Of a stretch of DNA of 64,000 nucleotides, positions 5,542-46,337 are shown in pieces. A program made the position numbers and the translations under genes. Source of the DNA: a virus; the IMG/VR virus record IMGVR_UViG_3300028920_000054, positions 1-64,000 of that record; one strand, written 5' to 3'. The notes below the pieces were generated by a model. The model was given only the letters and a program-made list of their open reading frames with translations, was not told where the DNA came from and made no database searches. Positions within the stretch are counted from its first letter, which is position 1. Every line of letters starts with the position of its first letter.

Positions 5542-6102
5542 ATGACAAAAGACGAAATAAGAAAATACTTAATAGAAAATTCAACAGTTAACGAAGAAAC
5601 TGATTGTTGGGAGTGGAATAGGCGTCTAAACATGCATGGATATGGTGTTGCTAGGAGAAACCAATTTACTAGCAGAAGGGCGCACAGGCTGTCGTATTTT
5701 GTTTTTATAGGATATGTACCAGATGGGATGTTCGTATGCCATCATTGCGATAATCCCAAATGCATAAACCCAGAACATCTCTTTATTGGAACTAATGATG
5801 ATAATATGAGAGATATGGTAGAAAAGGGTAGGGCAAAGAATGGCTCAGTGCGTGGAATGCCAAGTCCCTTTTTGGGGAAAAAGCATACCGAAGAAACAAA
5901 GCTAAAAATTGGACGTGCAAATTCAATTAGGCAATCTGGAAGCGGGAACAGTCACTACGGAACAAGTTGGATTTACAATGATGAATTTTTTGAAACCAAG
6001 AGAGTGAAAAGGGGAGAAATTAAAGAATATCAGGAAAATGGATGGTTGCTTGGCAGAAAGATGTCCTACCACGGTAACGGCATTTCTAAAGCAACAGCCT
6101 AA
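5542..6102 (+). CDS. HNH homing endonuclease with NUMOD3-like motif
   Basis: A 186-residue free-standing endonuclease. The HNH core reads CWEWNRRLN..GYG, then RRAHRLSY and VCHHCDNPKCINPEHLFIG (about residues 20-90). It is followed by a NUMOD3-type DNA-binding motif, GKKHTEETKLKIGRANS, and a C-terminal module WIYNDEFFETKRV that is common in phage homing enzymes. Such genes spread by nicking or cutting sites that lack them. It lies just upstream of the tRNA pair and was probably acquired on its own. Confidence 0.9.
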   Translation: MTKDEIRKYLIENSTVNEETDCWEWNRRLNMHGYGVARRNQFTSRRAHRLSYFVFIGYVPDGMFVCHHCDNPKCINPEHLFIGTNDDNMRDMVEKGRAKNGSVRGMPSPFLGKKHTEETKLKIGRANSIRQSGSGNSHYGTSWIYNDEFFETKRVKRGEIKEYQENGWLLGRKMSYHGNGISKATA

Positions 6103-6114
6103 AAACCAAAACAT

Positions 6115-6190
6115 CTAGGTGTAGCTCAGGCAGTAGAGCGCTTAGTTTGGGCCTAAGAGGTCGGTGGGGCGGAACCATCCACCTAGACCA
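6115..6190 (+). tRNA. tRNA-Pro (anticodon TGG)
   Basis: A 76-base cloverleaf: acceptor CTAGGTG/CACCTAG perfect, D stem GCTC/GAGC, anticodon stem CTTAG/CTAAG with loop TTTGGGC (anticodon TGG at 6148-6150), and T stem GGTGG/CCATC with one wobble. CCA is encoded. The T loop is GGCGGAA instead of TTCnAnn, and the D loop AGGCAGTA lacks the usual GG pair. It would read CCA, a common codon in this window. Confidence 0.85.
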
Positions 6191-6196
6191 GATAAC

Positions 6197-6272
6197 GCCA
6201 CGGTAATTCAGCTAGTAGAATAGCCGATTTGTAATCGGCATGTCGAGGGAGCGAAGCCTTCCCGTGGCTCCA
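6197..6272 (+). tRNA. tRNA-Thr (anticodon TGT)
   Basis: A 76-base cloverleaf six bases after tRNA-Pro: acceptor GCCACGG/CCGTGGC perfect, D stem ATTC/GAAT, anticodon stem GCCGA/TCGGC with loop TTTGTAA (anticodon TGT at 6230-6232), and T stem GAGGG/CCTTC with one wobble. CCA is encoded. The T loop AGCGAAG lacks T54-T55 and the D loop AGCTAGTA lacks the GG pair. It would read ACA, which is frequent here. Confidence 0.85.
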
Positions 6273-6796: not shown

Positions 6797-7570
6797 ATGG
6801 TGTACAAAAATAATTTTATCGTAGTGGTTAAATGTGGAGGAAAGGTTCTCAGGGAACAAGGTGGAGAAGTAAGGTTGCCATTTGGTTCTGAGTATTCTAT
6901 TCTTCTGAAGAACAAGGATTCAAGAAAGGCAGTAGCAAGCATTTCGATTGATGGGGAAAGCGTAACTGATGGAAGGATAGTCGTTGACGGTTTTTCCGAA
7001 GTTGAATTGGTTGGTTTTCTTGAAGGAATGTCTGTTCGCAACAAATTTAAGTTCATTCAAAAGACAGAAGAAATTGTAAAACATCGTGGAGATAGGGTCG
7101 ACGATGGGATTGTGACGGTTGAATATTGGTTTGAAGAACGAGTTGAAGTTACCAAGAAGTATGAAGATGTATATGTAAAAAAATACATAAACCCATGGTA
7201 CACAGACCAAGGGTCGTGGACACCGCAGCCCTATAGGGACACTACAATTACTTGTAGTTCCGACATAAGTAGTTGTAGTCCCCAGACAACCACAAGAGGG
7301 GGCTGTTTTGTAAATAGTTGTGTCCCAACTCAAGACGAAGGAATCACCGTTAAGGGTTCAGAAACAAGGCAAGACTTCCAATATGGAAGTACAAAAACCC
7401 TTGAATCACAAAGCAATGTAATTAACATTGTTTTGAAGGGGTACACTGACTCTGGAATAAAAGTGGAAAAGTTTGTTGCAACAACAGACAAAGTAAAATG
7501 TCCAACGTGTGGAAGAACCGCAAAGTCGAACAGTAAATACTGTGCTAATTGCGGAACCTATTTGTTATAA
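6797..7570 (+). CDS. Protein with C-terminal zinc ribbon, unknown
   Basis: A 257-residue protein. Residues 1-95 form a beta-rich domain (NNFIVVVKCGGKVLREQGG, GSEYSILLKN, ASISIDGESVTDG) that resembles a domain seen in many uncharacterised phage and bacterial proteins. The middle (about 125-190) is Cys/Ser/Thr-rich and irregular. The C-terminus is a zinc ribbon, CPTCG...CANCG. AGGAGG lies 5 bases before ATG 6797. It is a single-gene unit between leader structures and the promoter at 7599. The function is unknown. Confidence 0.65.
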   Translation: MVYKNNFIVVVKCGGKVLREQGGEVRLPFGSEYSILLKNKDSRKAVASISIDGESVTDGRIVVDGFSEVELVGFLEGMSVRNKFKFIQKTEEIVKHRGDRVDDGIVTVEYWFEERVEVTKKYEDVYVKKYINPWYTDQGSWTPQPYRDTTITCSSDISSCSPQTTTRGGCFVNSCVPTQDEGITVKGSETRQDFQYGSTKTLESQSNVINIVLKGYTDSGIKVEKFVATTDKVKCPTCGRTAKSNSKYCANCGTYLL

Positions 7571-7598
7571 AAATGCATCACCATGCCCAACTTTTTTC

Positions 7599-7627
7599 TT
7601 GACAAACTCAAGAAAGTGTGATATACA
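7599..7627 (+). promoter_or_regulatory. Promoter P2 (start of glycan cassette)
   Basis: TTGACA (7599-7604), 17 bases, TATACA (7622-7627). The spacer end AGAAAGTGTGA and following TAT are shared with the promoter at 5188. Confidence 0.8.
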
Positions 7628-7666
7628 CATATCAAGATTAACAATTTTTCGGGAATCAGCTACGGG

Positions 7667-7713
7667 AGGCTACCATGAAATTAAAGGCTATTGCATAACG
7701 TGGTGGCCTTTTT
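7667..7713 (+). terminator. Leader peptide and attenuator-like terminator
   Basis: AGGCTACC (7667-7674) pairs with GGTGGCCT (7702-7709), with one T.G wobble, followed by a run of T. The stem encloses a complete eight-codon reading frame, ATG 7675 to TAA 7698 (MKLKAIA), with GGGAGG just before it. An alternative stem AAAGGC/GCCTTT (7683-7688 with 7706-7711) shares the 3' arm. A ribosome on the leader frame would melt either stem. It sits between the promoter at 7599 and the glycosyltransferase gene. Confidence 0.5.
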
Positions 7714-7733
7714 GCGTTTAAAACAGGATGCTT

Positions 7734-9737
7734 ATGAACATATCAATACTTTGTCTTAACGGATTACAGAACTTTCTTAAACCAATAGAAGCACATTTTT
7801 CTAAATCACACACAGTTACAACGTGTTTTAGCAATGACCAAGAACAGATCAAAAAGGCTATAAGCAATGCAGATGTGGTTTGGATTGAATGGGCTAACGA
7901 ACTTGCGATTCAATTAACGCACTCAGATTTGTTGGATGGCAAAAAAGTTATTTTAAGGTGTCATAGCTACGAAGTTCTTTCGGGATACATTCCAAGGATT
8001 AATTGGGACAAGATAAGCGAAGTAATTTTTGTAGCTAAACATGTTCAGGACTTGGCACTTCAGCAAGCCAAGATTAAAAGCTATCAGATAATCCCCAACC
8101 CGCTTGAAGTTAAAGAATGGGAATTTGCAGAAAGGGAAAACGGGAAAAACCTTGCCTTTGTTGCAGACATAAACGCAAAAAAGGGAATCATGCTACTGAT
8201 TCACGCTTTCAATGCATTGGTTAAAAAAGACCCTTCATATATGCTTCATATTGCTGGTAGAATTCAAGACCCTAGATTTGGACTTTACATTAAACACATA
8301 ATAAATAAACTTGGGATAGAACAGAACGTTTCTTACCATGGGTATATAGAAAATATGCAAGAATGGCTTAAAGATAAAAACTATGCAGTCTGTACAAGCC
8401 CTTGGGAATCACAGGGAATGGGGCTGTGCGAATCCATGGCAATGGGCATAAAACCTATAATTCATAACTTTGTTGGTGCGGAAAACATCTATAAGCCTGA
8501 ATATCTGTGGACAAGCATAGACGACTTTCTTGCCATGATTGAAGGTGACTATAACTCTAAAGATTACAGAAATTACGTTGCCACCAACTTTGCACCCGAT
8601 AGGATATTCAAACGAATAGACAAGACAGTCAAAAACATAAAACCTGTTGCTAAACTTGAAGATGGGGTTACGGCAATAATAGCGGTTCATAATGGTGCGA
8701 AGACTGTAGGGCGTTCGATAGATTCCCTATTGGTGCAAACCGTAAAACCAAAAGTGATAGTCGTTGACGATGCCTCCACGGATGATACGTGTGAAGTTGT
8801 TAAGAAATACGATGTAGAACTAATTAAGCTGAAAGAAAACAGGTGGGTTGCAAGCGCAAGAAACGAAGCACTTAAACGAGTTAAGACAAAGTACGTTATG
8901 TTTCTTGATGCAGATGATTCCGTTACTGAAGATTACATCGAAGAAACGATGAACACGCTTGAAGCACATCCCGAATGTGGTTTTGCATATACCGATATGT
9001 GCCACATTACAGATGGTGATGAAAAGTTTGTTGTTGTTCCACCGTTTGAAATGAACAATTTCATAAACCACAATTATGTTTCGTATTGTGCATTAATGCG
9101 AACAGAAGACGTACATTACAGCGACTACCTGAATGATTGTAGAAACCACATGTACGACCATGAACTATTTTTAAGAATTGCCATGAACAAACCGGGAATA
9201 AAGTCAGACGGTGGAAGGTTCGACTATACCATTGCAAGAGATTCGGTAAGCAAGAATTACGAACGTGGAAGAACGGATATGTATCTTCAGATGGTGGATG
9301 GCATTCAGGGCATTGACGTAAGGGCAAATCCGGGGAATAAGATACTTCTTGTGTGCTGGGGCCGAGACTATCTTGATGCTTCAAAAGTTTCGTTTGAAGT
9401 TTACACCTTTCTGAAGTCGTTGGAAGAATTTGGTGAAGTGTTTACATTCTATTGGGATATCGAAATGAAATATTTCGGCAGGCAGGGAATGGTTGACAGG
9501 TTGTTTGCTTGGATAGACAGGGTAGACCCAACGCACATATTCCACGTATGCTACAAAGACCACATTCCCGTTGAAGCGTGGAAAAAGATTTCAGAAAAGC
9601 GTAGTACGATAGGTTGGTTCTGTGACGACAACTGGAGGTACGATGATTATTCAAAGGACTACGCAGAAGGATTTAGGCACGTAGTGACCACATATAAAGA
9701 GGCGTATGATAAGTATTTGAAGGAAACTGAGGCGTAG
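7734..9737 (+). CDS. GT4-GT2 glycosyltransferase fused to the N-terminal half of a CgeB-like enzyme
   Basis: A 667-residue multidomain protein. Residues about 1-300 are GT-B fold, GT4-like (LAFVADINAKKGIMLL, HIAGRIQDPRF, SPWESQGMGLCESMAMG with the nucleotide-sugar-binding glutamate). Residues about 315-510 are GT2, GT-A fold (AIIAVHNGAKTVGRSIDSLL, VDDASTDDT, MFLDADDS with the metal-binding DxD). Residues about 515-667 match the N-terminal half of CgeB-like glycosyltransferases (FHVCYKDHIP, IGWFCDDNWRYDDY). The protein stops at KETEA. The missing C-terminal half is encoded at 12301, with small genes in between. Start ATG 7734 follows AGGAT. Confidence 0.85.
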   Translation: MNISILCLNGLQNFLKPIEAHFSKSHTVTTCFSNDQEQIKKAISNADVVWIEWANELAIQLTHSDLLDGKKVILRCHSYEVLSGYIPRINWDKISEVIFVAKHVQDLALQQAKIKSYQIIPNPLEVKEWEFAERENGKNLAFVADINAKKGIMLLIHAFNALVKKDPSYMLHIAGRIQDPRFGLYIKHIINKLGIEQNVSYHGYIENMQEWLKDKNYAVCTSPWESQGMGLCESMAMGIKPIIHNFVGAENIYKPEYLWTSIDDFLAMIEGDYNSKDYRNYVATNFAPDRIFKRIDKTVKNIKPVAKLEDGVTAIIAVHNGAKTVGRSIDSLLVQTVKPKVIVVDDASTDDTCEVVKKYDVELIKLKENRWVASARNEALKRVKTKYVMFLDADDSVTEDYIEETMNTLEAHPECGFAYTDMCHITDGDEKFVVVPPFEMNNFINHNYVSYCALMRTEDVHYSDYLNDCRNHMYDHELFLRIAMNKPGIKSDGGRFDYTIARDSVSKNYERGRTDMYLQMVDGIQGIDVRANPGNKILLVCWGRDYLDASKVSFEVYTFLKSLEEFGEVFTFYWDIEMKYFGRQGMVDRLFAWIDRVDPTHIFHVCYKDHIPVEAWKKISEKRSTIGWFCDDNWRYDDYSKDYAEGFRHVVTTYKEAYDKYLKETEA

Positions 9738-9740
9738 GCC

Positions 9741-9962
9741 ATGGATAAAACGGCATATTATTGCCCAAAATGTGGCGGAGAAGATGTTACGTTTAGGACA
9801 ATATCAACATGTTTTCCAGACAGGGCGGCACGTGTTTCACTCGATGAACTTACAAAGCCAAAGCGTAAGCTTATTTCTGACTATGTAATTGTTTCACTTG
9901 TAGTGCGTGAAGCAACCTGTACCCTTTGCGGGTATTCGGTAATTTTTTGCCCCACAGATTAA
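9741..9962 (+). CDS. Zinc-ribbon protein
   Basis: A 73-residue protein with CPKCG near the N-terminus and CTLCG near the C-terminus, a four-cysteine zinc ribbon around a charged middle (DELTKPKRKLISDYV). It begins three bases after the glycosyltransferase stop and is the first gene of the inserted block 9738-12300. The role is unknown; small zinc ribbons can bind nucleic acid or partner proteins. Confidence 0.6.
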   Translation: MDKTAYYCPKCGGEDVTFRTISTCFPDRAARVSLDELTKPKRKLISDYVIVSLVVREATCTLCGYSVIFCPTD

Positions 9963-10020
9963 AGGGGCTGTACTTTTAAAAAAGAAGTGTACAAAAACTA
10001 TTTGGCAAGCGAGGTTCCTT

Positions 10021-10233
10021 ATGGAAAAAACAAAGAGACTAAAAGAACTTGAAAATGACATGCAGTGCGCTCTTGGTAAGTTTTTAGACGAAAAAACAAA
10101 AGACGCATTGGAAGAATTTTGTGGGATATTGGCAGATGAAAGCGATATGGTTGTATCCATTAATGGAACGTGGGAAAGGGCATTAAAGGCAACCATCAAA
10201 TTTAAACCAAAAGAAAAAATTGAAAAGAAATGA
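10021..10233 (+). CDS. Small charged helical protein, unknown
   Basis: A 70-residue protein rich in Lys and Glu, with predicted helices (KRLKELENDMQCALGKFLDE) and a beta hairpin (MVVSINGTWERALKATIKF). It overlaps the next gene by four bases (ATGA). It contains no known motif. It is part of the block inserted in the CgeB-like gene. Confidence 0.5.
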   Translation: MEKTKRLKELENDMQCALGKFLDEKTKDALEEFCGILADESDMVVSINGTWERALKATIKFKPKEKIEKK

Positions 10234-10538
10234 GCATAAAGATAGAAGATACAAAAAACGAAGAAGTTCTTAGAAGGGTTGCCGAGGCTGAAGAAAAAAA
10301 ACGTCAAAACAAGGTGATAGAAGAATACGTATATAGGTGTATATGTGTTAGAGTTTGTCCAAAATGTGCCGGTTGGTTAAATCTTATAACTGACCCTCCG
10401 TATAACCTGGATTCATGGAGATATATTTGCGAAGAATGTGGCGAAAAGTATTACGACACATCTTGGTATTACAGCGGAATCCATAACGGCAGCGATAGCA
10501 CAGGAAGAAGTGTATCAAAAATATTTGAAGGAAGGTGA
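10230..10538 (+). CDS. Zinc-ribbon protein with helical N-terminus
   Basis: A 102-residue protein. The N-terminal 35 residues form a charged helix, then CPKCAGW (around 44) and CEECGEKY (around 70) make a zinc ribbon. The surrounding aromatic residues (WRYICEECGEKYYDTSWYY) resemble transcription-factor-like ribbons. Its start overlaps the preceding stop by four bases. The function is unknown. Confidence 0.55.
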   Translation: MSIKIEDTKNEEVLRRVAEAEEKKRQNKVIEEYVYRCICVRVCPKCAGWLNLITDPPYNLDSWRYICEECGEKYYDTSWYYSGIHNGSDSTGRSVSKIFEGR

Positions 10539-10541
10539 ATT

Positions 10542-10778
10542 ATGAAGTTAACCAAAGAACTGGTTGTTTCAAATATTGAGGGAGTAAGGTATCGACTTAG
10601 TGACGGAACTGAAGGGATTATCAACACACCTCGTGATATTTGGCTTATTATCTTAGGCAGTCTAAAGCGTGTGCCTGAGTTGATGCGTAAAAAGAATTGG
10701 CCAAAAGAAGATATTGACGAAACGACTAGCGAAATTAAAGCCATTGAAGAAGCATTAGCAGAAGTTTGTGTGGACTAG
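10542..10778 (+). CDS. Small hypothetical protein
   Basis: A 78-residue protein beginning MKLTKELVVSNIEGVRYRLSDG, with a likely beta hairpin followed by two helices (IWLIILGSLKRVPELMRKK and EIKAIEEALAEV). No family is recognised. It has tight spacing to its neighbours (3 bases on each side). Confidence 0.5.
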   Translation: MKLTKELVVSNIEGVRYRLSDGTEGIINTPRDIWLIILGSLKRVPELMRKKNWPKEDIDETTSEIKAIEEALAEVCVD

Positions 10779-10781
10779 GCA

Positions 10782-11009
10782 GTGAAGACAAAACGGTTGT
10801 TAGAAATAATCGAATCGTTTCGCAGGAAGAATCACTACTATGTAGATGAGGATTGTTGGTATTCATGTCCAGCTCACGAAGATTATTGTGGAGATAGGCC
10901 ACGCATTTGTGAATGTGGTCTTGCGGAACACAATGCGAGGGTTGACGAAGCCATACAAATTGTTAGTAGCATTAACGAAGAATCTTACCAAAAATATTTA
11001 AAAAAATAA
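10782..11009 (+). CDS. Cys/His-rich small phage protein
   Basis: A 75-residue protein starting at GTG 10782. The centre CWYSCPAHEDYCG...CECGLAEHNARVDEA has five cysteines and histidines, a pattern seen in a small, widespread phage family in which a Cys cluster is followed by an H/E.NA.VD.AL helix. A zinc site is likely. The biochemical role is not known. Confidence 0.6.
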   Translation: MKTKRLLEIIESFRRKNHYYVDEDCWYSCPAHEDYCGDRPRICECGLAEHNARVDEAIQIVSSINEESYQKYLKK

Positions 11010-11029
11010 AAAGATGGAGGAAAAGTATA

Positions 11030-11209
11030 ATGCCGAGACAGAACGGAATGGGGCCTCAGGGTAGGGGTCCGAAAACTGGACGTGGGTTAGGGCCGTGTAC
11101 AACTAAAAGCGGAGAAACAATTGTAGCAGAAGAAAAGGTTGGATTTTTCAGGCGACTAGGCCGTGGTTTAGGGTTAGGACGTGGAAGGGGCCGTGGCAGG
11201 CGTAGCTAG
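11030..11209 (+). CDS. DUF5320-like Gly/Arg-rich small protein
   Basis: A 59-residue protein. It opens MPRQNGMGPQGRGPKTGRGLG followed by PC, the signature of DUF5320-type proteins (MP..DGTGP.G.GP.TGRG.G.C). It ends in a Gly/Arg-rich tail (GRGLGLGRGRGRGRRS) that could bind RNA or DNA. GGAGG lies upstream of ATG 11030. DUF5320 genes are known mostly from anaerobic bacteria and archaea, so this may be a clue to the host habitat. Confidence 0.7.
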   Translation: MPRQNGMGPQGRGPKTGRGLGPCTTKSGETIVAEEKVGFFRRLGRGLGLGRGRGRGRRS

Positions 11210-11265
11210 ACAACTACCATCCCTACTTTACCGACTGTGGCAATAAGCAAAAGGCGGAAAAAATT

Positions 11266-11439
11266 ATGATTAAGAAAAAATTTAAAGTGATATATGATGG
11301 TCAACTTGATGAAGATGTTGATGATTTAATAAGGAATACCCTTGAGGGAATCGGTGCAAAGTGGTATGCACAAGGATATAACTTCACAACCAATGAACGT
11401 GATATATGTTTTGATTTGGAAATTATTTTAAATGGGTAA
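11266..11439 (+). CDS. Small hypothetical protein
   Basis: A 57-residue protein, ATG 11266 to TAA 11439: a beta strand (KKKFKVIYDG), a helix (DEDVDDLIRNTLEGIGA) and two more strands (FTTNERDICFDLEIIL), resembling a tiny ferredoxin-like alpha/beta unit. It overlaps the phosphatase start by 8 bases, which supports real translation. Confidence 0.55.
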   Translation: MIKKKFKVIYDGQLDEDVDDLIRNTLEGIGAKWYAQGYNFTTNERDICFDLEIILNG

Positions 11440-12037
11440 CATTTTTGCAATAGGCGACATACACGGTTGCCTAGAAAAACTAGAAAAAATGTTTTCCTTG
11501 CTTGAAATATCAAAGGACGATACCGTTGTGTTTCTTGGGGATTACGTTGATAGGGGGCCACAGTCAAAAGAAGTAGTTGGTTTCGTCATTGACTTGAAGA
11601 AGAAACACAATGTTATATGCTTGCTTGGGAACCACGAAGAAATGTTCCTTAATTGCCTTGATGGAATTAACGAAAACTTGCACCTCATGAATGGTGGGCT
11701 TACGACAATAAGGTCATATGGTGGGTCTATTCCAAGAGAACACATGGAATTTTTTAAATCACTACTTCCATATTATGAAACAGAAGAATATATTTTTGTA
11801 CATGCTGGGTTAAAACCAAACATTCCATTGGAAGAACAAGACATTGAATGGTTGACTTGGATTAGATATGAATTCATTAACTCTAAATATGATTTTGGCA
11901 AGACTGTTATTTTTGGACACACCCCACTTGAATTTCCACTTGTAGAAGAAAATAAAATTGGAATAGATACTGGTGCGGCAATGGGCGGAATGTTAACGTG
12001 TATTGAACTTCCAAGAAGAAGAATATTGCAGGTATAG
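11432..12037 (+). CDS. PPP-family metallophosphatase
   Basis: A 201-residue serine/threonine phosphatase-like enzyme of the lambda PP type. It carries the full metal-site set: GDIHG (8-12), GDYVDRG (36-42), GNHEE (66-70), then HAG near 120 and GHTP near 160. The size matches lambda phosphatase (221 residues). Possible substrates are phosphoproteins, nucleotides such as Ap4A, or sugar phosphates. It is the largest gene in the block that splits the CgeB-like enzyme. Confidence 0.9.
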   Translation: MGNIFAIGDIHGCLEKLEKMFSLLEISKDDTVVFLGDYVDRGPQSKEVVGFVIDLKKKHNVICLLGNHEEMFLNCLDGINENLHLMNGGLTTIRSYGGSIPREHMEFFKSLLPYYETEEYIFVHAGLKPNIPLEEQDIEWLTWIRYEFINSKYDFGKTVIFGHTPLEFPLVEENKIGIDTGAAMGGMLTCIELPRRRILQV

Positions 12038-12046
12038 TGAATTGAT

Positions 12047-12304
12047 ATGTTTGGAAATTCGTATTATCAAAGAACCGTTAAGGCGACCGAAGTTTTAACG
12101 GAAGGTGGTGAAACAACAATAACACTCAACGTTGTTTCTGTGTTTGTTGATGATTTTAGCCGTGGAAACCCAACGGAAGAAACTATAAAGATTAGGTTAA
12201 ACGAAGAATTGACATTTGATTGCGAAAGCGTTTACAAGACAAAAGAAATGCAGGAAAAGATAGAAATGCTTTTAAAGAAAGCAGACAACGGGGAAGACCT
12301 ATGA
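12047..12304 (+). CDS. Small hypothetical protein
   Basis: An 85-residue beta-rich protein (YYQRTVKATEVLTEGGETTITLNVVSVFVDD) with a helical C-terminus rich in Lys and Glu. Its stop overlaps the start of the CgeB-like C-terminal half by four bases (ATGA), so that fragment is translationally coupled to it. No family is recognised. Confidence 0.55.
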   Translation: MFGNSYYQRTVKATEVLTEGGETTITLNVVSVFVDDFSRGNPTEETIKIRLNEELTFDCESVYKTKEMQEKIEMLLKKADNGEDL

Positions 12305-12810
12305 AGCCAATTTTATCTCAATGGGCTGCAAACCCATTCTACTTTAAAGACTATGAACTTGAAAAGGATATAGACGTATCTTTCTGTGGACAAGCATATG
12401 GCGATAGAATGGCATGGTTAGACGAACTTAAGGTTGAACGATACGGAAAAGGTCAACCAAACGGAATGATAGACTTTAAGGAAATGGCAAAAGCCTATAA
12501 TCGTAGCAAGATATGTATAAACTTTTCAAAGGGTTCAGATGGAAGGATGCAGATTAAGTGCAGACCCTTTGAAGTAACCGCATCAAAGTCAATGCTTCTC
12601 TGTGAATATGTTGAAGGAATAGAAGACTATTTTGAGATTGATAAAGAGATTGTTTGCTTTAAAACTAAGGAAGAACTGAAAGAAAAAATAAGTTACTACC
12701 TTGAACACGAAGAAGAACGAGAAGCAATAACGAAAGCTGGATACGAAAGAACACACAAAGATCACTTGTGGAAAAATAGATTTGGAGATATATTTGAGGA
12801 GATAGAATGA
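12301..12810 (+). CDS. C-terminal half of CgeB-like glycosyltransferase (split gene)
   Basis: A 169-residue protein starting MKPILSQWAANPFYF. In intact CgeB-like (Glyco_trans_1_2) enzymes this segment follows directly after the end of the 7734 gene (YDKYLKETEA then KPILSQWAANP). The rest carries the second Rossmann half: DIDVSFCGQAYGDR, AYNRSKICINFS, CRPFEVTASKSMLLCEYVEG and the C-terminal helix. It probably associates with the 9737-terminated protein to form one active site, or is a relic. GGGGAAG precedes ATG 12301. Confidence 0.8.
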   Translation: MKPILSQWAANPFYFKDYELEKDIDVSFCGQAYGDRMAWLDELKVERYGKGQPNGMIDFKEMAKAYNRSKICINFSKGSDGRMQIKCRPFEVTASKSMLLCEYVEGIEDYFEIDKEIVCFKTKEELKEKISYYLEHEEEREAITKAGYERTHKDHLWKNRFGDIFEEIE

Positions 12811-36716: not shown

Positions 36717-36738
36717 ATAAATCCACTTGGATACATTT

Positions 36739-37608
36739 ATGCACAATCTAATTTGTCAGTATTGCGGAAAATCTTTTAGTGCAAGAAATTGGTACGCTAA
36801 ATACTGTAGCCCTAACTGTAAGTCACATGCATATTCAGACAAGCATCGTGACGAAATAAACAGTAGGGTTCGTAAAAACAGGGCTGGCAAAGAAGACAGA
36901 AAGAAAAATGGTAAATATACGCATAAATGTATCCATTGTGGAATAACGTTTCGATCAACAAGGCCCACCTGTTTGTCCTGTGGCAAACGAGACAAACTTC
37001 ATCGGCCAAACGAAAAACAAACAATGGTAGAGTTGACCTGCGAACACTGTGGAAAGGTTTTCACAAAACCTAAAGCTCAATATGTTCAGGCAACCAAAAA
37101 CGGTAAAAAGTTAGGGTGCTGTCAACGGCATACACACATATTGCATGGCCGCACTCTTTCTTTAACTTGCAGCGAATGTGGAAAGACATTTGAACGGGCC
37201 AAGTCTACTTACGAACACGACAATAAGGAAGGCGGACATGTGTTTTGCTCACGGGAATGTCAAGACAAAAACATAGATTACATTCTCAGGGGCGAAGACC
37301 ACTACCACTATATTGACGGAAAATCAAGTGGGTATCGTGGTAAGGGTTGGAACAAAATTCGTAAGCGTATCAGAGAACGAGATAAACATACTTGTTATTT
37401 GTGTGGTAAGACAAGAGAAGATATTGGCAAGGAACTTGATGTCCACCATTTAATTAGGTTTGAAGATTTTGAAGATGAAAACGATGCTAACCAAGGGTAT
37501 AATTTGATTTCACTTTGCCCTTGTTGTCATCACACTGAAGAAATTAATCCTACAATTTTAAGGATAGTCCCGTTGATTCGGGAGCGTAAGGAACGAATGG
37601 CAGCGTAG
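36739..37608 (+). CDS. HNH endonuclease with tandem zinc ribbons
   Basis: A 289-residue protein inserted between the capsid and decoration genes. It has three or four CxxC...C zinc ribbons (CQYCGKSF, CIHCGITF, CEHCGKVF, CSECGKTF), then a C-terminal HNH domain: RERDKHTCYLCGK, LDVHHLIRFEDF, NLISLCPCCHHTEE. It is a free-standing homing nuclease, and likely targets the capsid region of phages lacking it. ATG 36739 is preferred over the in-frame TTG at 36727. Confidence 0.88.
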   Translation: MHNLICQYCGKSFSARNWYAKYCSPNCKSHAYSDKHRDEINSRVRKNRAGKEDRKKNGKYTHKCIHCGITFRSTRPTCLSCGKRDKLHRPNEKQTMVELTCEHCGKVFTKPKAQYVQATKNGKKLGCCQRHTHILHGRTLSLTCSECGKTFERAKSTYEHDNKEGGHVFCSRECQDKNIDYILRGEDHYHYIDGKSSGYRGKGWNKIRKRIRERDKHTCYLCGKTREDIGKELDVHHLIRFEDFEDENDANQGYNLISLCPCCHHTEEINPTILRIVPLIRERKERMAA

Positions 37609-42614: not shown

Positions 42615-45600
42615 ATGCAGTGGGTTTTTAAAGTAGGATATAAAAAACTTGTTCCTGATTTGACAACAAGACTGAAATATTGGTCTGACTGTCAACTAGT
42701 GGACATACGCCCTTCAGGGTTTTATCCTACTAAAGCGGGAAAGCACTTCTGCATTATTGAAGACGGGAAAGATTACTGGAAAGTTAGAAGCACTACCGAC
42801 TGGAAGTCCACGAAGAAAAGTGTTCTTGACCTGAAAAAATACCTTACAGTTGCAGATGCAAAGGGGAAGTATCCGTGGGATGCAGGATATAATGAAAACA
42901 CGGTTCCGAAGAGAAAGCGGGACTGGTTTATTGATTACAAATCACTGTTAGATAAAAAGCATATTACTGATTCGCAATTTGATGGAATTTACGATAAATC
43001 ATGGGAGGAAATAATCGTTCTTGAGGGTGACATTACGCAATTGCTTACTCATGAAGATGCAAAAACACGCTTGCAATCTATATATTCTGATAAGACCGGA
43101 ACCGTTGCACAAAACGGAGCTGGTGCAGGAACAGATGGGGCTTTTACTATAGGTGCGACCGGAGATTACGCAACCCTGACGTTGGCAGAAGCAGATATTG
43201 CGGCTCAACTCACTGGGGACTTAACCTTTGAACACCTTAATGAGCAAACCGCCATATCCTCATTGGTACAGTTTGACCTTGATACAAATGGACACCTATT
43301 AAAAATAACAGCATCACCTGGGGCGGAACACAACGGTGGTGCGTACGGGAATGGAGCAAGAATAGACAGGGGAACATATGATGATATCAGATGTCTTGAG
43401 ACTGTCGAGGGGAGCTTTGATGATTTAGAATTTTCAAATCTAGCTTTTGATGTTTCTGGGGCTGGGAATGACGGGTTGTTCTTGTCGAATGGAGCTAAAG
43501 GGGGAACGTGGACTGTAAACCGTTGTTTGTTTAAGGGGGGGTCTAGTTCTGTTAGTCTACTAAGGGTTTATTACAATGCAAAAAACGTAATATTGAAAAA
43601 CAATATTGTTTATGGAAACGATGGAACATATGGGGGAATTGTCCTAGAATCAATTTATGCTGGAAGCCATCAAGTGTATAACAATACTTGCGTTGGAAAT
43701 CGTTTTGGAATCAAACAAGATTACGCTTCAGAATCAACAACAACGATGGTTTTTAAAAATAATCTTTGTCAAGCCAATACGTCTGATTTCATTGATGATG
43801 GGGCTGGCTTTGGAACTACGGGTCACAATATTTCTGAGGACGATACAAGCCCTGACGCTTCATACCAAGAAAAAGACCTGCATACAAATTCCATATTTTT
43901 AGATTACGATAACAACGATTATCGTCTTAATTCTGCCGGAGATGCTACAAATCTTGCCATAGTTGATGACGGTGAAGACCTGTCTGTAATATTCACAGAT
44001 GACATTCAGGGGCAGACACGCTCAACTTGGTACATTGGGGCGAGCGAAATAGTCTCTAGCGAAGAAACAATAACCATAACACCTTCCATCGACGCCCTTG
44101 TTGCTAAAACATTTACCAAAACAGCCTCCCTTGACGCTCTTTTACAATCGGTCAGAACAGACACACTTTCAATAGACTCGTTGCTTTATGCAACCAAAAC
44201 GCAAGAAGTCTCGTTAGATTCGCTTTTGCAAGCAGTTAAAACAGGAGCGCTATCCATTGATTCGTTAGTTTCCGTTGCTAGAACAATAACCGTTTCCCTT
44301 GACTCTTTATTGGCGGTGGTCGGAACCGATACAGTTTTAATAGATGCTCTTTTACAATCAGCAAAGACACAGAAAGTTTCCTTGGATGCGCTTTTACAGG
44401 CGGTTAAAAGTGGTTCGCTGTCGATTGATGCGTTACTGCAATTAACAAAGACTAAAACGATTTCAATGGATACCCTGCTTAGTGCTGTTAAAACGGGTGA
44501 AACTTCCCTAGATTCTATGCTTGCAGTCGTTGGGACTAAGACTGTTTCAATAGACACGCTTATTCAGGCAGTTAAGGAAGGTGTTCTGTCCATAGATACT
44601 TTGATTCAGGCAACAAAAACAACTTCGGCTTCGATAGACTCGTTATTGCAAGACAGCAAAAGCAATACGGTTTCTTTAGATTCAATGTTACGGGCAGTAA
44701 AAAGCGGAACCACTTCACTTGATTCTATTCTTGCTGTAATCGGAACAAAAACTATTTCACTTGATGCGCTGTTAAGCGCTACAAAAACAGGAACGCTTTC
44801 GATAGATTCATTGATACAAGCAGTTGGAACAAAGACGGTTTCAATGGATGCATTGTTGCAAGAAGTTAAGTCTGGAACATTGTCGTTAGATGTGTTCCTT
44901 GAGGCAACACAAACCAAGGAACTTTATTTAGACGCTCTTATAGAAGCAGTAAAGTCTGGTGTCGTTTCGTTAGATACCATTTTGTCTTCAGGCTTATCTA
45001 ACACCATTTCGTTAGACGTTCTTTTACAAGCAGTAAAAACCAACACGATATCGCTAGACACTTTAATGCTGTTGGCTAAAACGCAGACAGTCTCAATCGA
45101 CACCATTCTGGCTGTCGCTAACAGCGTTGGAATATCGGTTGACGCACTTTTAGAGGCAAGCAAGGCGAACACCATTTCACTAGATTCGTTGTTACAGGCA
45201 GTAAAGAGTGGCGTGGTTTCCATAGACGCTATATTGGCAGGTGGAACAGGAATAATTCTTTCACTCGATGCTCTTTTACAAAGCACCAAAACCGGGGTTG
45301 TTTCAATAGATTCATTGGTTCAGGTTGCAAAGACAGATTCTACCATGCTTGATTCTATTATATCAATGACAATGGAATCGACTTCTGTGCTTGACGCTTT
45401 TATTCAAAAAGCACAGACATCTTATGTTTCGATAGACACGTTGTTGCAGTCTGTCAAAACAAAAATACTTTCGATTGATGCCCTGTTAAGTCTAGTAAAA
45501 TCGGTTTCAGTTTCGATAGACAGTCTTTTGATGGCAACCAAAGATGAAGTTCTGTCCATTGATGCCTTGATACAGGCTTCTTATGGCAAGACGCTTGATG

Positions 45601-46337
45601 TGGACGCACTGTTACAAGCAACCAAAGAAGGAACCACTTCTTTAGATGCGGTTATATTTTTGGTTGGTGGTCTTTCTGTTTCATTAGACGCACTATTGAT
45701 GGCAGTAAAGAACGAAACCTTATCGTTGGATACGCTTATACAGATAACCCAAACAGAAACGGTTTCTATTGACGCTCTTTTAGGTGCAGAAAAGACCGGA
45801 TTGATTTCGTTGGATTCGTTGCTTAAAATGGCAAAGACCAATTCGGTATCAATAGATTCGTTGTTGCAGTCTTCAAAAGAAGGTTTTGTTTCGATTGACA
45901 CAATTATATCTCTTGTTTTTGTAAACAACATGTCTGTTTCTCTAGACAGTATGGTGGCATTGTTACAAACCAATCAGATTTCCATTGATGCCCTTATTCA
46001 AGCCGTTGGAACGGAAACTGTTTCGCTTGATACCTTATTGCAGGCAACAAACACAAGCACCGCCGTTATGGACGTTCTAATGTCTGCATCAAGAACAGGA
46101 ACTGCGGTAATAGATTCGCTGATTCAAAAGGGATACACCGGATACGCCCTTATTGATGCGATAATAGGCCACTTCCAAAGGGTTAGTCTTGATGTTTCGA
46201 TAAAGCCTGCCGGATGGGTATTGCCATTCAGGTCGATGGCAGAAGCACCATGGAGAAATAGGGTAGTTTCATCAGAAGGAAGAAACATGTATGTATCCGC
46301 ACCGGGTCGGACGAGAATAGTTTATAGTAATAATTAA
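42615..46337 (+). CDS. Beta-helix virion protein with about 50 tandem 14-residue repeats
   Basis: A 1240-residue protein. Residues 1-150 are an N-terminal domain without recognised motif; 165-460 form a right-handed beta-helix region with N/G-rich turns (VILKNNIVYGNDG, MVFKNNLCQANTSD) like pectate-lyase/fiber proteins. Residues 491 to about 1195 are the 14-residue repeat array (see separate entry). The C-terminus (SIKPAGW to SNN) is a short tail-type end. It lies between the lysis-like genes and the head-tail connectors; probably an elongated fiber or stalk on the virion. Confidence 0.75.
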   Translation: MQWVFKVGYKKLVPDLTTRLKYWSDCQLVDIRPSGFYPTKAGKHFCIIEDGKDYWKVRSTTDWKSTKKSVLDLKKYLTVADAKGKYPWDAGYNENTVPKRKRDWFIDYKSLLDKKHITDSQFDGIYDKSWEEIIVLEGDITQLLTHEDAKTRLQSIYSDKTGTVAQNGAGAGTDGAFTIGATGDYATLTLAEADIAAQLTGDLTFEHLNEQTAISSLVQFDLDTNGHLLKITASPGAEHNGGAYGNGARIDRGTYDDIRCLETVEGSFDDLEFSNLAFDVSGAGNDGLFLSNGAKGGTWTVNRCLFKGGSSSVSLLRVYYNAKNVILKNNIVYGNDGTYGGIVLESIYAGSHQVYNNTCVGNRFGIKQDYASESTTTMVFKNNLCQANTSDFIDDGAGFGTTGHNISEDDTSPDASYQEKDLHTNSIFLDYDNNDYRLNSAGDATNLAIVDDGEDLSVIFTDDIQGQTRSTWYIGASEIVSSEETITITPSIDALVAKTFTKTASLDALLQSVRTDTLSIDSLLYATKTQEVSLDSLLQAVKTGALSIDSLVSVARTITVSLDSLLAVVGTDTVLIDALLQSAKTQKVSLDALLQAVKSGSLSIDALLQLTKTKTISMDTLLSAVKTGETSLDSMLAVVGTKTVSIDTLIQAVKEGVLSIDTLIQATKTTSASIDSLLQDSKSNTVSLDSMLRAVKSGTTSLDSILAVIGTKTISLDALLSATKTGTLSIDSLIQAVGTKTVSMDALLQEVKSGTLSLDVFLEATQTKELYLDALIEAVKSGVVSLDTILSSGLSNTISLDVLLQAVKTNTISLDTLMLLAKTQTVSIDTILAVANSVGISVDALLEASKANTISLDSLLQAVKSGVVSIDAILAGGTGIILSLDALLQSTKTGVVSIDSLVQVAKTDSTMLDSIISMTMESTSVLDAFIQKAQTSYVSIDTLLQSVKTKILSIDALLSLVKSVSVSIDSLLMATKDEVLSIDALIQASYGKTLDVDALLQATKEGTTSLDAVIFLVGGLSVSLDALLMAVKNETLSLDTLIQITQTETVSIDALLGAEKTGLISLDSLLKMAKTNSVSIDSLLQSSKEGFVSIDTIISLVFVNNMSVSLDSMVALLQTNQISIDALIQAVGTETVSLDTLLQATNTSTAVMDVLMSASRTGTAVIDSLIQKGYTGYALIDAIIGHFQRVSLDVSIKPAGWVLPFRSMAEAPWRNRVVSSEGRNMYVSAPGRTRIVYSNN
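44085..46196 (+). repeat. Tandem 42-bp (14-codon) repeat array, about 50 copies
   Basis: Each unit reads (S/V)(I/L/V)D(A/S/T)LL-x-(A/S)-x-K-T-x-x-(L/I/V), for example SLDSLLQAVKTGAL and SIDTLIQAVKEGVL. The Asp at position 3 is constant in all units. One unit has 16 residues and one 12. DNA copies are diverged, so selection acts on the protein and not on the DNA. The frame is continuous across all units. Confidence 0.9.

Follow-up and report, generated by a model that had tools for sequence, protein, structure and literature searches.

The stretch analyzed here, called the window below, comprises bases 1-64,000 of the 90,361-base virus record IMGVR_UViG_3300028920_000054, a single metagenome contig. 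In it, the two halves of a CgeB-like glycosyltransferase domain lie on separate plus-strand genes, at 7734-9737 and 12301-12810 (genes are named below by their first positions), which flank a block of nine small genes. The block spans 2,563 bp (9738-12300) and all nine of its open reading frames (ORFs) are on the plus strand, in agreement with the coordinates and gene count given in the initial annotation of the sequence.

The 5′ gene encodes a GT4-type GT-B domain and a GT2 domain, followed by the N-terminal half of the CgeB-like GT-B domain, as judged from Pfam matches (Glycos_transf_1, residues 129-255; Glycos_transf_2, residues 314-414) and from alignment to an uninterrupted relative, L016, with which the 7734 protein shares 47.8% identity. 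The CgeB-like half occupies the final 138 residues of the product (9321-9734, plus strand), ahead of the TAG stop at 9735-9737, and retains WFCDDNWRYDDYSK. This half alone gave no Pfam match, and was identified by alignment to uninterrupted homologs (L016, L003, L006 and others); it retains residues conserved in the family. The 3′ gene encodes the C-terminal, donor-binding type half in 169 amino acids, assigned from its identity to L016, a structure model and its match to PF13524 (Glyco_trans_1_2; 1.8e-31, 109.5 bits, cutoff 25). This is the expected family, and the possibility that the 12301 protein belongs elsewhere did not hold. In a viral model library, the proteins nearest to it were CgeB-like, in line with the name originally given; most of the listed targets exceeded 250 residues, and a few had 173-215. 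Since the N-terminal half is 59% identical to L016, the C-terminal half matches PF13524 and L016 is a single frame, the proposal that one CgeB-like domain lies on both sides of the block is upheld.

No single polypeptide in the window carries both lobes: the first ends at the stop at 9735-9737, and the second has a new ATG start at 12301. Neither half contains a stop or frameshift. The starts at the two edges of the block have ordinary contexts, with anti-Shine-Dalgarno energies of −5.6 for the 9741 gene (rank 32/55) and −5.7 for the 12301 gene (rank 31/55), among 55 tested positions that include one, 3438, without a start codon. On the right side, the stop of the 12047 gene overlaps the 12301 ATG by 4 nt (ATGA), and the 12301 stop overlaps the next ATG, at 12807, to the same extent. 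On the left side, the 7734 stop and the 9741 gene are 3 nt apart.

Uninterrupted relatives and the direction of the split

Homologs were collected by single-protein searches, which returned L003 and L006 first, and by profile searches, which added more. In L003 and L006, the N- and C-terminal parts are found in one protein, and in L016, the closest relative, the GT4, GT2 and CgeB parts form one unbroken ORF of 1335 amino acids. The C-terminal half follows directly, in the same open frame and without a stop, in 70 of the 71 loci that match the N-terminal half; the remaining locus, L020, stops at the contig end. The table of 71 loci contains 51 distinct linker sequences, and some of its loci are the same contig fetched twice. 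Three further members of the subfamily (L078, L083 and L085) are also unbroken at the CgeB linker. Because the domain is unbroken in 70/71 loci and in L016, we conclude that the split in the window almost certainly is derived and arose by insertion. The same count answers the concern that homologs might normally keep two separate genes: in the relatives, the domain is uninterrupted.

The reverse history, in which the halves began as separate genes and were fused into a single gene elsewhere, could draw on L103 and L104, where GT4 and CgeB are encoded by separate genes (in L103, with a GT2 gene between them). Even there, however, the CgeB domain is one unbroken ORF in its own gene, and with 70/71 loci unsplit at this linker, the probability of this history is close to negligible. 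A lobe swap in the window was also considered and found no support, since L016 is the closest match for the upstream part as well as for each half.

Conservation, cut site and fold of the two halves

We compared the halves with the uninterrupted copies for signs of decay. Identity to L016 is 59-62% in the N-terminal half (59% over 128 residues), 64% in the C-terminal half and 47% in the unsplit GT4 plus GT2 part. When L083, L085 and L078 served as outgroups, the changes seen only in the window and those seen only in L016 numbered 12:6 in the N-terminal half, 8:10 in the C-terminal half and 60:28 in the unsplit part. In addition, the residues conserved across PF13524 are largely retained in the alignments of the 12301 half. 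These comparisons suggest that the halves are no less conserved than the uninterrupted copies, and no relaxation of constraint was seen beyond the linker.

The linker in L016 reads TTY-PMMCEDYKEMGYENILLSQW; in the window, it reads TTY-KEAYDKYLKETEA, a stop, and then M-KPILSQW at the start of the 3′ piece. An MKPI start is shared with the 3′ piece of L083, which we judged to be a coincidence. Counted by eye, the distance from TTY to W is 23 residues in L016, in L078 and in the window without the start Met, and 20 residues in L083 and L085. The initial annotation had described the two genes as exactly the two sides of one domain. The length relative to L016 and L078 agrees with this, but the spacing of 20 in L083 and L085, and the absence from the window of the GYxNI linker motif present in most of the family, make "exactly" not fully accurate.

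The equal length of the joined pieces without the start Met would also suit a block that is removed as a spliced intron or intein, so that the full-length protein is made. We consider splicing highly improbable: Rfam detected no group I or group II intron in the window at gathering scores, nor in 9300-12800 at E values up to 10, and Pfam matched no intein domain in the tested proteins. Moreover, the block contains nine separate genes, and the pieces have a stop and a start of their own.

An AlphaFold2 model of the uninterrupted L016 domain gave a confident GT-B fold (predicted local distance difference test score, pLDDT, 88.5; predicted template modeling score, pTM, 0.87), and its top PDB neighbors include the GT-B enzymes MshA, PimA and BshA. 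In this model, the cut falls between helix 144-152 and strand 158-160, which, by analogy with these enzymes, appears to be the last strand of the N lobe. When modeled, the 12301 half folds by itself (pLDDT 91.2). The sequence assignments and the models together place the acceptor lobe and the donor lobe, as predicted features, on separate chains in the window.

These features are best explained by insertional fission. The ancestor almost certainly had a single gene for a GT4-GT2-CgeB glycosyltransferase, and small phage genes were inserted at a surface loop that leads into the final strand of the N-terminal lobe of CgeB. Translation of the first piece, which would keep its two other transferase domains, would end at the new junction stop. 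The second piece would start at the ATG overlapping the stop of the last inserted gene, and since this ATG overlaps the 12047 stop, its product could arise by translational coupling. The two pieces would then probably reassociate as a non-covalent GT-B heterodimer, with the acceptor lobe on the 7734 protein and the donor lobe on the 12301 protein. Taken together, we favor insertional fission at the GT-B joint with a probably functional two-piece enzyme, at a probability of roughly 0.6. That the two-piece enzyme still works, a possibility raised in the initial annotation, is somewhat better than an even bet, as judged indirectly from the conservation, the start/stop coupling and the fold models.

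Several points weigh against this interpretation. This split was found in one genome only, a metagenome contig. The family-conserved columns are kept in 48/92 cases in the window versus 54/92 in L016; among the 44 misses in the window, gaps account for nine (four in the linker, three close to the N end and two at columns that L016 lacks as well), and two more, at L016 positions 239 and 240, are misplaced tail letters in the alignment. Because strand 158-160 would be the last in the N lobe, the 12301 piece would need to supply it in trans. The block contains no homing or transposition gene, according to searches of all nine proteins against Pfam and of eight, all but 11266, against PHROGs. To these is added the missing GYxNI motif.

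The loss of this motif would also fit an insertion that recently inactivated the CgeB domain, with the 7734 protein working via GT4 and GT2, and the 12301 ORF persisting as a remnant or neutral passenger. Loss of the domain might be tolerable, since two transferase domains exist besides CgeB and many further sugar genes lie in the record, and no time estimate for the insertion speaks against a recent event. However, the reading frames of both halves are open and their conservation equals or exceeds that of the unsplit part, the 12301 gene has its own start with the ATGA overlap before it and an ATG overlap after it, and the L083 protein, described below, is likewise split with both parts retained. 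We therefore regard inactivation as rather unlikely, although it carries appreciable weight.

The inserted block and its repeats

The nine plus-strand genes of the block encode, in order, a Cys-rich, zinc-ribbon-like protein of 73 amino acids with CxxC pairs (9741-9962), a 70-residue protein (10021-10233), a Cys-rich protein of 102 residues (10230-10538), a 78-residue protein (10542-10778), a 75-residue protein with a GTG start (10782-11009), a DUF5320 protein of 59 residues (11030-11209), a 57-residue protein (11266-11439), a NinI-like Ser/Thr phosphatase of 201 residues (11432-12037) and an 85-residue protein, the stop of which forms the ATGA overlap with 12301 (12047-12304). The products of 70, 78, 57 and 85 residues have no assigned function. 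The DUF5320-like and PPP phosphatase genes named initially were both confirmed, the former by PF17253 (1.2e-10), and the latter by PF00149 (calcineurin-like phosphoesterase, 6.5e-20) and a NinI-like PHROG (phrog_246, 2.2e-61). The zinc ribbons were borne out in part: CxxC patterns were seen by eye in the 9741 and 10230 proteins, but their Pfam matches were only sub-threshold. Apart from the phosphatase and DUF5320 genes, no block gene gave a match above threshold; the 9741 protein had a weak HNH PHROG match (0.043), and the 10230 protein had no phage match.

Relatives of the phosphatase occur in 1399 of 50,697 phage records, all at less than 60% identity, and a single-protein search of viral contigs with this protein found no close relatives. 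When searched against five records, the 11432, 10230 and 12047 proteins matched only themselves. None of the block genes was found in any fetched relative locus, so the same nine-gene block, for which the initial annotation had proposed a search elsewhere, was sought without success among these relatives.

The composition of the block is not set apart from its surroundings, and a foreign composition, tried as a mark of origin, was not detected. The initial annotation had spoken of a recent insertion: the insertion stands, but "recent" is not demonstrated, as the composition is uniform and the closest copy found is ~60% identical. The uniform composition also bears on an assembly artefact, in which different genes or strains were misjoined in the metagenome contig. 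The split comes from a single metagenome record and no second copy of it was found, as such an error would have it. Nevertheless, L016 is the closest relative of both halves, the composition is continuous, the gene ends overlap neatly on the right and are 3 nt apart on the left, and the comparable split of L083 is present in two records that differ at 8/16,058 positions. A misjoined contig is thus very unlikely.

A 26-nt repeat links the left junction to the block. A repeat search located four plus-strand copies: copy 1 in the closing codons of the 5′ half (9696-9721, encoding KEAYDKYLK), copy 2 behind the 9741 stop and 14 nt ahead of the ATG at 10021 (9981-10006), copy 3 at 10504-10529, which the tail of the 10230 protein reads off frame, and copy 4 at 10977-11002, at the end of the 10782 gene. 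In pairwise comparison, 17-21 of the 26 positions are identical, and for a matrix built from three copies, the top-scoring site of the record on either strand is the fourth. The controls were 48 further stretches of the record, each 3,101 bp long and shifted by half a length from the one before; stretches that touched ~9.0-13.0 kb or ~42.0-46.5 kb, the latter containing a repeat-rich gene, were excluded before counting. Three further copies at 20/26 were found in 0/60 shuffles and 0/48 of these stretches, and three further copies at 19/26 in 2/48, the two stretches lying near 85-90 kb and overlapping one another. The repeat-rich gene is an ORF of 1240 amino acids (42615-46337) with dozens of degenerate SLDSLLQAVKTG-like repeats.

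The differences among the copies fall on codon positions 1, 2 and 3 in 12, 4 and 21 cases over 24 nt, a coding-like pattern, even though copy 2 lies behind a stop and the gene holding copy 3 reads it in another frame. All four copies end 12-27 nt before an ATG (9741, 10021, 10542 and 11030). A general upstream-of-start motif was not supported as the source of the repeat: among 3.5 million positions in other loci, the top score was 18.2 bits, and the matches were not tied to starts. Copy 1 may belong to the original linker (compare TTYPEIFKKM in L083 and TTYEHIYNRM in L085), the other copies being relics inside the block; alternatively, the present tail of the 5′ piece may have arrived with the block. 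The earlier statement that no obvious target-site duplication is present is accurate in the strict sense, as none was seen at the junctions, but it misses the diverged repeat that joins the left junction to three internal sites.

As for the rest of the window, terminase, portal and other virion genes were named by eye, and a portal-protein search found no close relatives. Two tRNA genes at 6115-6187 and 6197-6269 scored 46 and 51.9 bits with Rfam, and both were missed by ARAGORN. An HNH_3/NUMOD3 endonuclease gene (5542-6102) and a Cys-rich ORF judged HNH-like by eye (36727-37608) are possible free-standing homing genes. A stretch of ~20 kb (13019-33588) contains sugar and sulfur genes, including those for PAPS reductase, a HAD plus nucleotidyltransferase fusion, a DegT aminotransferase and GDP-mannose dehydratase.

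A second split and comparison with known systems

A different cut is found in the same type of GT4-GT2-CgeB protein in L083 (positions 6968-9991) and in L108. These records, of 77,965 and 34,849 bases, are those compared above over 16,058 positions. Here, the protein is cut in its GT4 domain, at the GT4 joint: in L083, a 150-residue piece at 6968-7417, ending IIPNGVDCDKFRRVVNG, is followed by a gene for a 132-residue protein and then by a 727-residue piece at 7808-9988, with overlaps of 8 and 4 nt. The 132-residue protein has helix-turn-helix matches, shows no nuclease domain, and resembles part of phage HNH endonucleases (phrog_8446, 4e-6), a part that we read as probably DNA-binding. In L085 (6965-9214), the protein begins at the GT4 C lobe, and no GT4 N lobe was found in its 27-kb record, which may be a fragment. 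One protein type is thus cut at two GT-B joints, the CgeB joint in the window and the GT4 joint in L083 and L108, each in a different phage, which suggests that these joints are tolerated insertion sites. It is a doubtful further step that fission recurs at such joints, the missing GT4 N lobe of L085 being counted with the two cuts, so that phage glycosyltransferases come to have their acceptor and donor lobes encoded separately, as exchangeable modules, with the repeated linker-like sequence marking successive insertions at a preferred site. If this were true, phages could swap donor lobes and thereby vary the sugars made.

Splits of this general kind are known in phages. Passages of PMC2988022 describe the nrdA gene of phage Aeh1 split by mobE, and the T4 topoisomerase gene split by mobA; they also report that function is retained in the split reductase (nrdA) and in the split DNA polymerase 43A/43B of Aeromonas phages, the products of which reassemble. 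As in those genes-in-pieces, inserted DNA in the window divides one enzyme coding region into two ORFs, each with a start and a stop of its own. In the cases covered by these passages, a homing endonuclease gene or an untranslated spacer separates the pieces, whereas the window has nine small genes with no recognizable nuclease, and its host gene, unlike theirs, is a glycosyltransferase cut at the GT-B joint. Judged by the gene content of the block, the split in the window is not a homing-endonuclease split. Islands of homing endonuclease genes and nuclease genes at phage exchange boundaries, as presented in parts of PMC10448857, resemble the window in that gene blocks have moved beside or within genes; they differ in that the block lacks a nuclease gene, the nearest being the HNH gene at 5542-6102, with no evidence of a link. 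Interrupted phage genes are portrayed in sections of PMC3322345 and PMC8351571 as rare features, and also as common annotation problems. A limited literature search found no report of a split phage CgeB-like transferase.

A two-chain GT-B enzyme likewise has precedents. According to portions of PMC10937113, separately expressed GT-B lobes assemble into active dimers, and Alg13/Alg14 are a natural case. The predicted arrangement in the window, with the N-terminal (acceptor) and C-terminal (donor) lobes as separate polypeptides, is like that of Alg13/Alg14 and the engineered split enzymes. In these portions, however, Alg13 and Alg14 correspond to the lobes of MurG, whereas the C-terminal half in the window belongs to PF13524/CgeB, and the cut lies one strand before the lobe boundary. 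Phage CgeB/YkvP-like (PF13524) glycosyltransferases share the PF13524 and viral CgeB-like model matches of the C-terminal half, but carry both lobes in one protein; in the window, 2.56 kb separate the lobes, and the N lobe shares a chain with GT4 and GT2. If the two-piece enzyme works at all, it would do so in the manner of the split phage enzymes and GT-B dimers above. The locus is a natural experiment on the survival of a GT-B transferase after a cut at the lobe joint, such as was made deliberately in engineered enzymes (PMC10937113). It would also widen phage genes-in-pieces from the enzymes of DNA metabolism to one that acts on glycans, with a large insert of several genes in place of a single homing nuclease. 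The split CgeB-like enzyme is thus an extension of phage genes-in-pieces, strengthened by the L083 split, and not a new category.

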